Shown piece after piece: positions 5,779-9,413 of a DNA stretch of 45,630 nt. The number at the start of each line of letters is the position of its first letter. Position 1 is the stretch's first letter. The notes beneath the pieces were generated by a model that made no database searches, was not told the origin of the DNA, and was given only the letters and a program-made list of their open reading frames with translations. Source of the stretch: a virus. The translations under genes and the position numbers were made by a program. The stretch spans positions 1-45,630 of the IMG/VR virus record IMGVR_UViG_3300027985_000472; one strand, 5' to 3'.

Positions 5779-6819
5779 ATGATAACCCAATACACGATTA
5801 CCGATGCCGCATGGACTCCCATAACCTCCGCCGGTCAGTCGTGTATATGCTGGCTCGACGACGACAACGAGGACGCGGGGGATTCCGCAGATGTCAGGGT
5901 GTGGCACGACACCACGCCATCAGATTCCGCCATAGATATAGCTCGCCGCGTCATTCGCGCCAAGAACAATTCCGACGCCATTTCCCTTGTTGCCGCCCGA
6001 GAAGACGATATCTATTATGCCCGTTGCGCCAGGCCCAGTAGTACCGCCAAGCTCTGTGTCGATACTAACGGCGTCGGAATTCAAAAAATATCAGGAGACG
6101 TCAGCGTCCAAGATCAACATACAGAAATCGTTGATGTATATCTGTGTCGCGAGATATCTACGACGGCTCTGGCAAGCGAGGCGGTAGCTAATACGCGTAG
6201 CGTTACGCTAGCTACCGGCCATGGAGCCGTAGTAGGCAACGTCTTATGTATAAAAAATGGTACATGGTATCAGGGCAGGATATTAACCGTAGTCGGCGAC
6301 GTAATAACCGTTAACCAGCCATTCAACCGAACATATCCAACGGGATCAACGGCTCGTATAACTTCGAGCGACATGAACGTCAACGGCTCGGTAACTCCCG
6401 TCGTGTTTTCCATATATCCGCCGGCAACTCTTAAATGGGATATAACGCGCATCATCGGAGTAATACGCGACGATGCGGCGATGGATGATGGAAAGTTTGG
6501 CGGGCTTGCGCAGTTGGCTGTAGGTGTAATGTTCCGAGTCAAGATTGACGATACGCATTATAACAACCTGTTCAACGCCCGTAACAATGGCGAGTTCGCC
6601 GTCAGAACATACGACGTATCATACATCGATGCCACACTGGGGCCGTCAGGGCAATATGGCCTACGCTTCCGCCGCTCATTCAATGGCTTCGATAAAAACG
6701 GAGTCGTTGTTAGGCTATATCCAGGAGGAGATAACCGGTTAGAGGTGGTAGTACAGGACGATCTTACTGGGCTTGCATATTTTTCTGTTGTAGCCCAGGG
6801 CCATGTCGTGGAGGATTAA
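5779..6819 (+). CDS. hypothetical protein, possibly virion-associated
   Basis: This 346-residue protein has no recognised catalytic motif. It is Gly/Asp/Val-rich with many predicted beta strands. The C-terminal half (about 205-346, from VVFSIYPPATLKWDITRIIG to GHVVE) reads like the beta-rich module seen in uncharacterised structural proteins of environmental phages. That comparison is from memory and unverified. Gly-Thr turn motifs (TGHGAVVGNVLCI, about 150-165) suggest a fibre or decoration role. It is followed without a gap by the M23 endopeptidase, with GGAG upstream of its own start. Confidence 0.55.
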   Translation: MITQYTITDAAWTPITSAGQSCICWLDDDNEDAGDSADVRVWHDTTPSDSAIDIARRVIRAKNNSDAISLVAAREDDIYYARCARPSSTAKLCVDTNGVGIQKISGDVSVQDQHTEIVDVYLCREISTTALASEAVANTRSVTLATGHGAVVGNVLCIKNGTWYQGRILTVVGDVITVNQPFNRTYPTGSTARITSSDMNVNGSVTPVVFSIYPPATLKWDITRIIGVIRDDAAMDDGKFGGLAQLAVGVMFRVKIDDTHYNNLFNARNNGEFAVRTYDVSYIDATLGPSGQYGLRFRRSFNGFDKNGVVVRLYPGGDNRLEVVVQDDLTGLAYFSVVAQGHVVED

Positions 6820-7284
6820 ATGACATATACCGCAAGATTCGCCCACCTAGAAAAACTCCCCGAATATAAAGTCGGCGAGCAAGTTACCCGAGGCATGATT
6901 ATAGGCCGCATGGGCGATAGCGGCTCTGGAACAGGCGCGCATCTCCACCTCGACGTAGTAGAGGGCCTACAGACCTATCGATACAACCTTGCGGCCCTGG
7001 CGTCATGTCACCCCATGCCAAGCGCCAAGCAAGCGACGCTTTTCATCGACGAGGAACTATTCCGCATTAAGCCAATCGTCACGACATATTATTCAGACCC
7101 CGAATACTATAAGCGCTTCGCCAAAATCCACCCCGGATACGATTTAGTCCCCGAGGATCGCCACCGCACCAACGAGCATTTCAATATCCATTGGAACCGA
7201 TCCATGCCCGGCAAAATACTTCGCATGCTCGAAAACGACGTCGGCTATGGCAACTGCGTTTATATCGCTTTCGACGTTCTCTAG
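6820..7284 (+). CDS. M23-type peptidoglycan endopeptidase with permuted domain order
   Basis: This 154-residue protein has all the M23 zinc-peptidase signatures in swapped order. Residues 3-48 match the usual C-terminal half (AHL at 8-10, a Val/Gly-rich loop, then GSGTGAHLHLD with HLH at 41-43). Residues 102-150 match the usual N-terminal half (HPGYD at 104-108 as the HxxxD zinc site, then GKIL and GYGNCVYI). A linker with one Cys joins them. The start is firm because GGAGG is 5 bases upstream and the previous stop abuts. It would cleave cross-links in the cell wall as endolysin or virion lysin. If H104, D108 and H43 come together in the fold, the active site is complete. Confidence 0.8.
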   Translation: MTYTARFAHLEKLPEYKVGEQVTRGMIIGRMGDSGSGTGAHLHLDVVEGLQTYRYNLAALASCHPMPSAKQATLFIDEELFRIKPIVTTYYSDPEYYKRFAKIHPGYDLVPEDRHRTNEHFNIHWNRSMPGKILRMLENDVGYGNCVYIAFDVL

Positions 7285-7294
7285 GAGGTATCAC

Positions 7295-7561
7295 ATGTCC
7301 ATGTTCCGCGAGGCCCCACTTCCCGACGGCACGAAAGGCCCGGTATCATTTCGCCGCGTTGCCGCCGCCTGGTGCGCGCTCATATTCGGCATCGTAACAA
7401 TCCAGACCGTCCGCAATCTCCCAGCCATCATGGCACTAGCATCTCCAGCCGTAGGGGTCGTCGCCGTTCTGTGCGGCCTCCCTCTTGCCGGAATGCTCCT
7501 TCTCCTTTTTTTCACGACCTGGACGGACATAGCGTCGACAGCATCGGCGTTGAAGAAATGA
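7295..7561 (+). CDS. holin-like two-helix membrane protein
   Basis: An 88-residue protein with two strongly hydrophobic segments (about 18-38, and 45-72, which includes ILASPAVGVV-type residues and LPLAGMLLLLFF), a short charged N-terminus and a KK C-terminus, as in class II holins. AGGAGG lies six bases before the ATG at 7295. A longer reading from 7247 would overlap the endopeptidase and has no ribosome site. It sits between the endopeptidase and the spanin-like genes, as expected for a lysis cassette, and its stop overlaps the next start (ATGA). Confidence 0.65.
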   Translation: MSMFREAPLPDGTKGPVSFRRVAAAWCALIFGIVTIQTVRNLPAIMALASPAVGVVAVLCGLPLAGMLLLLFFTTWTDIASTASALKK

Positions 7562-7953
7562 GAGCGCGAGGATATGTACTCCTCTCGGCCATCTCCGCGA
7601 TTGTGGGCGCTGGTATTGCTTGTGGCATTATTCTGCCTATTCTCGGCGATGAGCGCGCACGGGCAGACGAGCGAGCCACCGCCTACAATGACGCTATCTC
7701 AACTATTGCAGACAACAGACGAGAGCTTGACGAGGCTAGAAGCGCGCTTGCAAGAGCGGAAAGCGCAAATATCGAGCTTGCAAGTCGACTTAGCGACGCT
7801 ACAAATACAACTAGCCGAGGCGTCGAGACTGGCCGAACAATCGCAATCGGAATTGACGGCGACCTCGATGAGCTTGGACTCGCTCGAGACTCGATACGAA
7901 GTGCTATCGAAACAGTTGGCCGATTATCGCTCAATGACGGAAAAACAGATTAG
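7558..7953 (+). CDS. inner-membrane spanin-like coiled-coil protein (Rz-like)
   Basis: This 131-residue protein has an N-terminal membrane helix (about 6-28, YVLLSAISAIVGAGIACGII) and then a long charged helix (about 32-85, with DERARADERA and ELDEARSALARAE). The C-terminal region is more Gly-rich. This is the topology of Rz-type i-spanins, which connect to an outer-membrane partner. It starts by ATGA overlap with the holin-like gene. Almost its whole length is also covered by another credible gene in the +1 frame (7574-8062). No lipobox is present in either protein. Confidence 0.65.
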   Translation: MRARGYVLLSAISAIVGAGIACGIILPILGDERARADERATAYNDAISTIADNRRELDEARSALARAESANIELASRLSDATNTTSRGVETGRTIAIGIDGDLDELGLARDSIRSAIETVGRLSLNDGKTD

Positions 7954-8062
7954 ATCCCTGGAGGCGCGCATTAAACTATATAAATCAAGCACTATAATCG
8001 TATCGACATCCCTAGCCGCTGCCGGAATATATATCTTAGGCGACAGATTGGAATGGTGGTAA
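7574..8062 (+). CDS. secreted coiled-coil protein with C-terminal membrane helix, overlapping gene
   Basis: This 162-residue protein is read one frame away from the gene at 7558-7953. It has a signal peptide (about 8-31, LWALVLLVALFCLFSAMSAHG, with a possible cleavage after AHG), a Pro/Thr linker, a long heptad-rich coiled coil (about 42-128, many Leu/Gln/Glu) and a C-terminal membrane helix (about 138-156). The last 109 bases lie beyond the partner gene, so the frame is constrained on its own. GAGG lies only two bases before the ATG, so translation may depend on coupling. It could act as a spanin partner or a one-protein spanin, though the expected lipobox is missing. Confidence 0.65.
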   Translation: MYSSRPSPRLWALVLLVALFCLFSAMSAHGQTSEPPPTMTLSQLLQTTDESLTRLEARLQERKAQISSLQVDLATLQIQLAEASRLAEQSQSELTATSMSLDSLETRYEVLSKQLADYRSMTEKQIRSLEARIKLYKSSTIIVSTSLAAAGIYILGDRLEWW

Positions 8063-9048
8063 TGCCTACAGGCAAAGAACGAGCCGCGAAAATAAAAAAC
8101 ATGGTAGACGATATTGGAGTAAGCGCCACGGCCGGATCACTCGGAATAAAACCCGAGACCGTCCGAAGAATTTGTCGCATGGCAAAAAGCGAGGCGCGCG
8201 ATGCACCAGAGCAACCAGTCGACAAATCGCCACGCGCCAAGCTATTAGAAAAACTAAGCGATAATCTATCCGACGATGAAATATACGCCCTAGTAAAAAA
8301 CAGCGAGAAGCGATTCGACAGCTCTCACTCGACGACTATCGATTTCTCTGGCGACTGGTTCCGCGTCGGCATATTGTCCGATATTCATGGTGGCGCTAAA
8401 TATCTCGATGATCGCAAGCTGGTATCCGCCATAGAGGAATGCAATCGCTCGAAATGCAAAGAGCTATGGCTCCCCGGCGACCTCACGGAAGGCATGAGTG
8501 GACGCGACGGTCACATCTATGAAATGCACCATATCGGCTACGAAGCCCAACGCGATTACATGGTCTCGCGCCTCAAGGGCTTTGCTGGACCGATCAAGGC
8601 AATCAGTGGAAACCACGATCTATGGTATTATTCCAAGGCCAACATGGGCGCGCTCATCGTCAAAGATATTTGCGACCGTATCGGAAGCCACGCCGAATAT
8701 CTTGGCGAGCATGAAGGCCGCATCTACCTCAACGGCGCCGCATGCGACCTATGGCACGGCGAGGACGGCGCAAGCTATGCGCTATCCTACCGCATCCAAA
8801 AAATAGTCGAATCGCTCGGCGAACAATCGCTTCCTCAACTAATCATCGCCGGCCATGATCACAAGGCTGAATTTATCCCCGACCTTCGCGGTATCATGGC
8901 AATCGAAGCCGGATGCCTCGAGGAGCAAACCCCATGGATGCGCCGCAAGAAGCTCAGGGCATTCGTCGGTTTCTGGATCGTTGATATCTGTGTTCGCGAC
9001 GAGAAGATCGTGCGGATTAAGCCAGAATGGGTTAGCTTGAAGGGGTGA
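8053..9048 (+). CDS. calcineurin-like metallophosphoesterase with N-terminal HTH
   Basis: A 331-residue two-metal phosphoesterase. The conserved blocks are visible in order: SDIHGG (109-114), GDLTEG (142-147), GNHD (186-189), a DLWHGEDG block, and GHDHKAEF near 275. Residues about 12-45 (including VSATAGSLGIKPETVRRI) form a helix-turn-helix, an added DNA-binding module. Substrates could be nucleic-acid ends or nucleotides; the sequence does not decide. It starts inside the stop region of the coiled-coil gene; an ATG at 8062 (TAATG overlap) is an alternative start three residues shorter. Its presence in the late cargo block is unusual. Confidence 0.85.
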   Translation: MVVMPTGKERAAKIKNMVDDIGVSATAGSLGIKPETVRRICRMAKSEARDAPEQPVDKSPRAKLLEKLSDNLSDDEIYALVKNSEKRFDSSHSTTIDFSGDWFRVGILSDIHGGAKYLDDRKLVSAIEECNRSKCKELWLPGDLTEGMSGRDGHIYEMHHIGYEAQRDYMVSRLKGFAGPIKAISGNHDLWYYSKANMGALIVKDICDRIGSHAEYLGEHEGRIYLNGAACDLWHGEDGASYALSYRIQKIVESLGEQSLPQLIIAGHDHKAEFIPDLRGIMAIEAGCLEEQTPWMRRKKLRAFVGFWIVDICVRDEKIVRIKPEWVSLKG

Positions 9049-9050
9049 TA

Positions 9051-9413
9051 ATGGATAGAGAAAGAAAGGTATTTGAATCCAAGGCATCTATAGAATCCCG
9101 AGATAGAGGCAATAGACAACATATTCATCCGTCAAGAAGTTCCACACAAAATAAAATATCCTCAGCATTTGATTCCATGCGCGATCTTGTTTTAGAAAAA
9201 AACAAGCGATATGGCGATAGCGCGCTTTCTCCTCTCGGCTGTTTTTCCAAACTCGACGGCGAGCAAGGCATACGTATTCGCCTTGACGATAAGCTCAAGC
9301 GCATATCGAATTCTGGCGAGTTACGCAAAAATGATATAGCCGACTTGATCGGGTATCTGTCGCTATTGTGTGTCGCTCGCGGCTGGACGGATTTTTCCGA
9401 CCTCATAGATTAA
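9051..9413 (+). CDS. DUF1599 / MazG-like nucleotide-associated protein
   Basis: A 120-residue protein. Residues from about 40 on (MRDLVLEKNKRYGDSA, then IRIRLDDKLKRI, then NDIADLIGYLSLLCVARGW) match the pattern of the 'nucleotide modification associated domain 1' (DUF1599). That pattern has a KNxxYG motif, a DKxxRI motif and a C-terminal Asp-rich helix. Relatives are thought to act on nucleotides. The ATG at 9051 has AAGGGG five bases upstream; a GTG at 9045 overlapping the previous stop is the alternative. It is the last gene before late promoter copy 2. Confidence 0.65.
   Translation: MDRERKVFESKASIESRDRGNRQHIHPSRSSTQNKISSAFDSMRDLVLEKNKRYGDSALSPLGCFSKLDGEQGIRIRLDDKLKRISNSGELRKNDIADLIGYLSLLCVARGWTDFSDLID

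Follow-up and report, generated by a model that had tools for sequence, protein, structure and literature searches.

A viral gene family encoding M23 endopeptidases with circularly permuted domain halves, probably phage endolysins

The locus and the start of the gene

The window analyzed here is a 45,630-nucleotide stretch of viral DNA (IMG/VR record IMGVR_UViG_3300027985_000472), and the gene under study is a complete open reading frame of 154 codons on its plus strand (Table 1). The first 50 residues of the protein contain motifs of the C-terminal half of an ordinary M23 domain (YxxxFAHL, followed by GxxGxGTGAHLHLD). By the columns of a local profile of canonical M23 domains, they carry H9 and H41, both of the general-base type, and the putative zinc ligand H43. 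Motifs of the N-terminal half are found in residues 85 to 154 (PIVTTYY, HPGYD, G(K/T)(I/V), and GYGNCVYI, in that order), where H104 and D108 are further putative zinc ligands. A preliminary description of this DNA had placed AHL at residues 8 to 10, GTGAHLHLD at 37 to 45, HPGYD at 104 to 108, and GYGNCVYI at 142 to 149; these positions, together with the coordinates and reading frame given for the gene, were found to be exact.

The start codon is tightly delimited. Directly before the ATG stands the TAA stop of the preceding gene, in the same frame, and a GGAGG lies five bases ahead of the end of that TAA; in three relatives (L135, L136, and L138) the ATG likewise follows an in-frame stop without a gap. 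The earlier claim that the start is fixed and that no upstream exon has been missed is upheld by these features. A missed exon or read-through of the stop was considered and rejected, since the upstream gene in the same frame has no M23 match and other genes occupy that place in relatives.

Downstream, the holin-like gene has its own AGGAGG at 7283 to 7288, and the 162-residue protein encoded in the second of two overlapping frames has a signal-like N terminus, a coiled coil, and a hydrophobic C terminus. The holin-like and spanin-like assignments in the window rest mostly on hydropathy.

Table 1. Features of the permuted M23 gene and the genes that follow it
Feature	Position	Strand	Basis
Circularly permuted M23 endopeptidase gene, 154 aa, probable endolysin	6820..7284	+	
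Residues 1-50, canonical M23 C-terminal half	6820..6969	+	Pfam PF01551 positions 45-88; local-profile columns H82, H113, H115
Residues 51-84, linker from old C terminus to old N terminus, motif Q...FID.ELF	6970..7071	+	Invariant residues (13 sequences); DSSP of model
Residues 85-154 (about), canonical M23 N-terminal half	7072..7281	+	Local-profile columns H33, D37 after rotation
Ribosome-binding site GGAGG (6810-6814) and in-frame TAA of preceding gene (6817-6819), abutting ATG	6810..6819	+	Sequence
88-aa protein, holin-like, two predicted membrane segments	7295..7561	+	Sequence, hydropathy; no family match
131-aa protein, N-terminal membrane segment, inner-membrane spanin-like	7558..7953	+	Hydropathy; no family match
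162-aa protein, other frame over same DNA, Rz-like spanin	7574..8062	+	PHROG 739 Rz-like spanin, E = 3.9e-5; hydropathy

Evidence for the permuted order

In its native order, the protein was matched by the Pfam M23 profile (PF01551; curated cut-off, 28.7 bits) over residues 3 to 47 only, on profile positions 45 to 88 (34.0 bits; E = 3.4e-8), and the same profile matched all 13 members of the family described below. When residues 56 to 154 were placed first, one match was obtained on profile positions 22 to 88 (40.5 bits; E = 3.2e-10), spanning the junction between the old C and N termini. A profile search in permuted order had been proposed in the preliminary description as a check of its claim that the M23 halves are swapped; the single match through the junction, together with relatives that are all in permuted order, bears that claim out. 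Searches of phage genomes with tblastn behaved similarly, with a best E value of 0.07 among the matches listed for the native order and 4e-8 for the rotated one, and no record in the phage collection was covered over more than 80% by the native-order search.

The gain upon rotation was further measured against the local profile, which had been made from 16 M23 domains, all in canonical order. Scores rose from 43.9 bits for the native sequence to 68.2 bits for the best rotation, and none of 200 versions with a shuffled second half exceeded 51.5 bits. Each of the 13 family members gained 16 to 31 bits on rotation, in every case exceeding its own shuffled maximum. This profile is slightly biased, as some of its canonical domains were retrieved with a rotated query; the Pfam result is free of that bias. 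Profile-profile comparison gave a score of 97.7 (E = 2e-16) with a separate second-half match in native order and a score of 132.0 (E = 1.2e-22) in one piece in rotated order. Residues 130 to 151 matched canonical positions 52 to 72 by profile-profile comparison. The HxxxD stretch was not joined into the rotated profile-profile match and had no significant score alone (probability, 0.5% or less), unlike in the sequence-profile alignment, where it was joined in. The assignment of this stretch is supported by its position, its spacing, and its invariance.

The catalytic set of M23 enzymes comprises an Hx3D motif, a histidine about 30 residues before HxH, and the HxH motif itself (PMC9662197). 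Here, Hx3D corresponds to H104-P-G-Y-D108, whose H and D are invariant in 13 sequences and fall on profile columns 33 and 37, HxH corresponds to the invariant H41-L-H43, and H9 lies 32 residues before H41. Once rotated, each of the 14 permuted sequences aligns H104, D108, H9, H41, and H43 with the profile's H, D, H, H, and H columns, respectively. The candidate zinc ligands named earlier (H104, D108, and H43) are thus present on M23 catalytic columns, metal binding itself being inferred. Along the chain, HxH (41 to 43) precedes Hx3D (104 to 108), opposite to the order in ordinary M23 proteins, and this reversal is seen in every relative; the protein is therefore a permuted variant and not an ordinary M23 member. 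As judged from sequence comparison, residues 1 to 50 and about 85 to 152 are the M23 halves in reverse order, and the permutation is confirmed.

A structure prediction, also among the checks proposed earlier, gave one confident domain for the 154 residues (AlphaFold2 on the family alignment; mean pLDDT, 90.0; pTM, 0.87). Halves that do not share one metal site, a refuting outcome named in the preliminary description, are weighed against by this single domain and by the catalytic columns, the shared site itself being inferred. The model has strands at residues 2 to 10, 27 to 32, 41 to 48, 85 to 89, 106 to 111, 131 to 140, and 144 to 152, and the linker (51 to 84) is modeled as three short helices by DSSP. 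Identified by their sequence motifs, the predicted strands are those expected of an M23 fold that starts in mid-fold. Foldseek, which searches in chain order, returned only local matches of 44 to 49 residues to phage lysins (1.3 to 2.2 Å; best probability, 0.87); 44 residues of the model superposed at 1.3 Å on an Arthrobacter phage lysin A, where the sequential match ended. No whole-chain match to BFVD or the PDB was found in native order, which is expected of a permutant and is not proof of one. Profile searches and chain-order fold searches share this blind spot, in that they see only half of a permuted protein, and permuted lysins are therefore probably annotated as fragments.

Relatives, origin, and known systems

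A single-sequence search of viral contigs for relatives returned no match. Viral contigs were scanned for HLHx(D/E) followed by HxGxD, and among the matches listed, those on L119 and L072 were full-length permuted homologues (44 to 45% identity), while that on L080 was more distant. Further permuted types may exist beyond these matches. Widening from these three yielded a family of 13 distinct proteins on 14 contigs, the window included; the 12 further proteins, from 13 other viral contigs, share 41 to 62% identity. Chance matches accounted for 4 of 15 in a widening search and for most of the motif-scan matches. Relatives with the halves in normal order, the outcome that would have refuted the preliminary description, were looked for; in all 12 further proteins the halves are permuted, with start and end points in common, and no canonical-order relative with the family motifs was found in the searches made. 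A scan of GTDB genomes recovered ordinary M23 halves and proteins only and no permuted gene, and the phage isolate collection gave half matches only, with no cultured phage of the family found.

Family members end with YGN..(I/V).(F/Y)E. and start with M.YT.R.AHL or a near variant. The 13 proteins share 27 invariant residues, including the five catalytic ones and W125-N126-R127; those in the linker are Q71, F75, I76, D77, L80, and F81. In four close pairs, dN was much lower than dS in each half as well as in the linker, and the family is under purifying selection in the pairs tested. In a tree of the rotated family and canonical domains, the 13 proteins formed one clade (support, 100/99), and L080 was left unplaced.

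The L080 gene (1727 to 2218, minus strand, on the same contig as L167) encodes a distant permuted M23 protein of 164 residues that has the same order and breakpoint and none of the family motifs; a C39-like peptidase gene comes next, its start overlapping the stop of the L080 gene. The protein scored 53.5 in native order and 76.8 when rotated, against a shuffled maximum of 60.8. With no family motifs and no assigned place in the tree, L080 leaves either one or two origins possible.

Circular permutations usually arise when a gene is duplicated in tandem and the outer halves are then lost. The same route is inferred here, and it would need the gain of only one start and one stop. In structural classifications, the M23 fold is a duplicated hybrid motif made of two similar half-motifs (SCOP b.84.3), and the break falls between them. 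In duplicated hybrid motif and barrel-sandwich hybrid folds (EIIA-Glc and LytM), such half-motifs would make a break at this joint structurally cheap; the known members of these folds are, to our knowledge, in canonical order. It is conceivable, though we consider it rather doubtful, that two or more permutations of M23 took place in phages at one and the same joint (one in the 13-protein family and one in L080), that the half-motifs are freely swappable modules, and that selection favored the new termini, perhaps so that activity could be controlled before lysis.

The closest known systems are the M23B or lysostaphin-type (LytM) endopeptidases (PF01551), including phage endolysins such as those of 2638A and EnpA, which have the same two halves and five catalytic residues in a single domain. 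The window family differs from these in its reversed halves, its new termini between the VxI and YxHL strands, its new linker (Q...FID.ELF), and a conserved W-N-R before the G-K-V strand. A precedent for natural permutation in a peptidoglycan-hydrolase fold is provided by permuted NlpC/P60 enzymes (YaeF/poxvirus G6R and LRAT-like families; cited in PMC6403190), which are cysteine enzymes of an unrelated fold and not M23 proteins. No permuted M23 protein was found in the open-access literature searched, where a natural circular permutant of M23 is apparently unreported; subscription papers were mostly outside the search. M23 enzymes, which find use as antibacterial agents, are among the commonest cell wall hydrolases, and the family provides natural, selected evidence for where their fold may be opened. 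It is also relevant to the proposal that M23 originated by fusion of two half-motifs.

Probable role in lysis

The permuted gene sits within the head gene cluster, between the genes for the portal and the head protease. In a relative (L161), it is directly followed by a recognized holin gene (PHROG 3427, E = 7e-22; Pfam GTA_holin_3TM PF11351, E = 8e-14), and small membrane proteins and spanin-like genes follow it in other relatives. No signal peptide, membrane anchor, or hydrophobic segment was detected in the 154-residue protein by hydropathy. A portal search returned one related phage, L002 (portal, about 66%), in which a C39-like, peptidase-looking gene (7328 to 7960, plus strand) occupies the slot of the window's permuted M23 gene; this difference in gene content is consistent with lysis modules having been exchanged.

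We consider it very probable that the gene encodes a tailed-phage endolysin, a zinc-dependent peptidoglycan endopeptidase of circularly permuted M23 fold. Zinc binding, bond specificity, and the lysis role are inferred, there being no data on activity or active-site geometry. The endolysin assignment rests on the holin-like and spanin-like genes that the gene precedes and on the recognized holin in L161; open reading frames of the window were only partly checked for another lysin. In the proposed mechanism, a linker of about 35 residues would join the old N and C termini, and new termini would open between the strand ending in GYGNCVYI and the strand leading to the catalytic HL, so that the chain could fold into an ordinary M23 barrel. 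Zinc would be bound by H104 and D108, now near the C terminus, and by H43, now near the N terminus, while H41 and H9 would activate the water that attacks the cross-link peptide bond. Since it has no signal peptide, the protein would accumulate in the cytoplasm; it may then cross the membrane through the neighboring holin and cut peptidoglycan, leaving disruption of the outer membrane to the neighboring spanin. With Gram-negative targets, the usual cut would be D,D-cleavage, which is an inference only.

In phages, many M23 domains belong to tail or tape-measure proteins, and the location of this gene within the head cluster, between portal and head protease, could likewise point to a virion-associated or nonlytic peptidoglycan hydrolase acting in entry or in capsid or tail assembly. 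This reading is improbable, as the protein is free-standing, about 150 residues long, and not fused to a structural protein, as holin and spanin-like genes follow it in several phages with different neighbors, and as the slot holds a different peptidase-like gene in the nearest related phage, as lysis modules do. The permutation could also have cost the enzyme its activity, leaving a decayed protein kept as a scaffold or regulator in the manner of degenerate LytM factors, and degenerate M23 proteins are known (PMC9662197); against this, the 13 members, with identities as low as 41%, do not vary at any of the five catalytic positions, and L080 has the same five residues, making such decay very improbable. 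An artefact, in which unrelated M23 fragments were joined by assembly error, frameshift, or a missed upstream exon, has nothing in its favor beyond the unusual order and is scarcely credible: the relatives refute it, with the halves arranged alike in 13 other contigs drawn from many data sets, and the in-frame stop directly before the ATG and an upstream gene without an M23 match also speak against it. An endolysin of permuted M23 fold remains the preferred reading.

Several features of the adjoining genes were also observed. Two long overlapping frames follow the holin-like gene in the window (7558-7953/7574-8062), in L119 (3656-3273/3658-3179), and in L072 (2610-2215/2612-2112). The same arrangement is seen in relatives, one product having an N-terminal membrane segment and the other a signal-like N terminus, coiled coil, and hydrophobic C terminus, and the starts are 2 bases apart in two relatives; it resembles a spanin pair whose genes overlap almost completely. 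At the same place in L164, a gene (8678 to 9196, plus strand) encodes a protein with a lipoprotein signal and, at its C terminus, a membrane segment, as in the layout of a one-piece spanin (u-spanin). Finally, a calcineurin-like phosphoesterase gene lies inside the head gene cluster of the window (8053 to 9048); it is conserved in L002 and adjoins the lysis cassette in L163 too.
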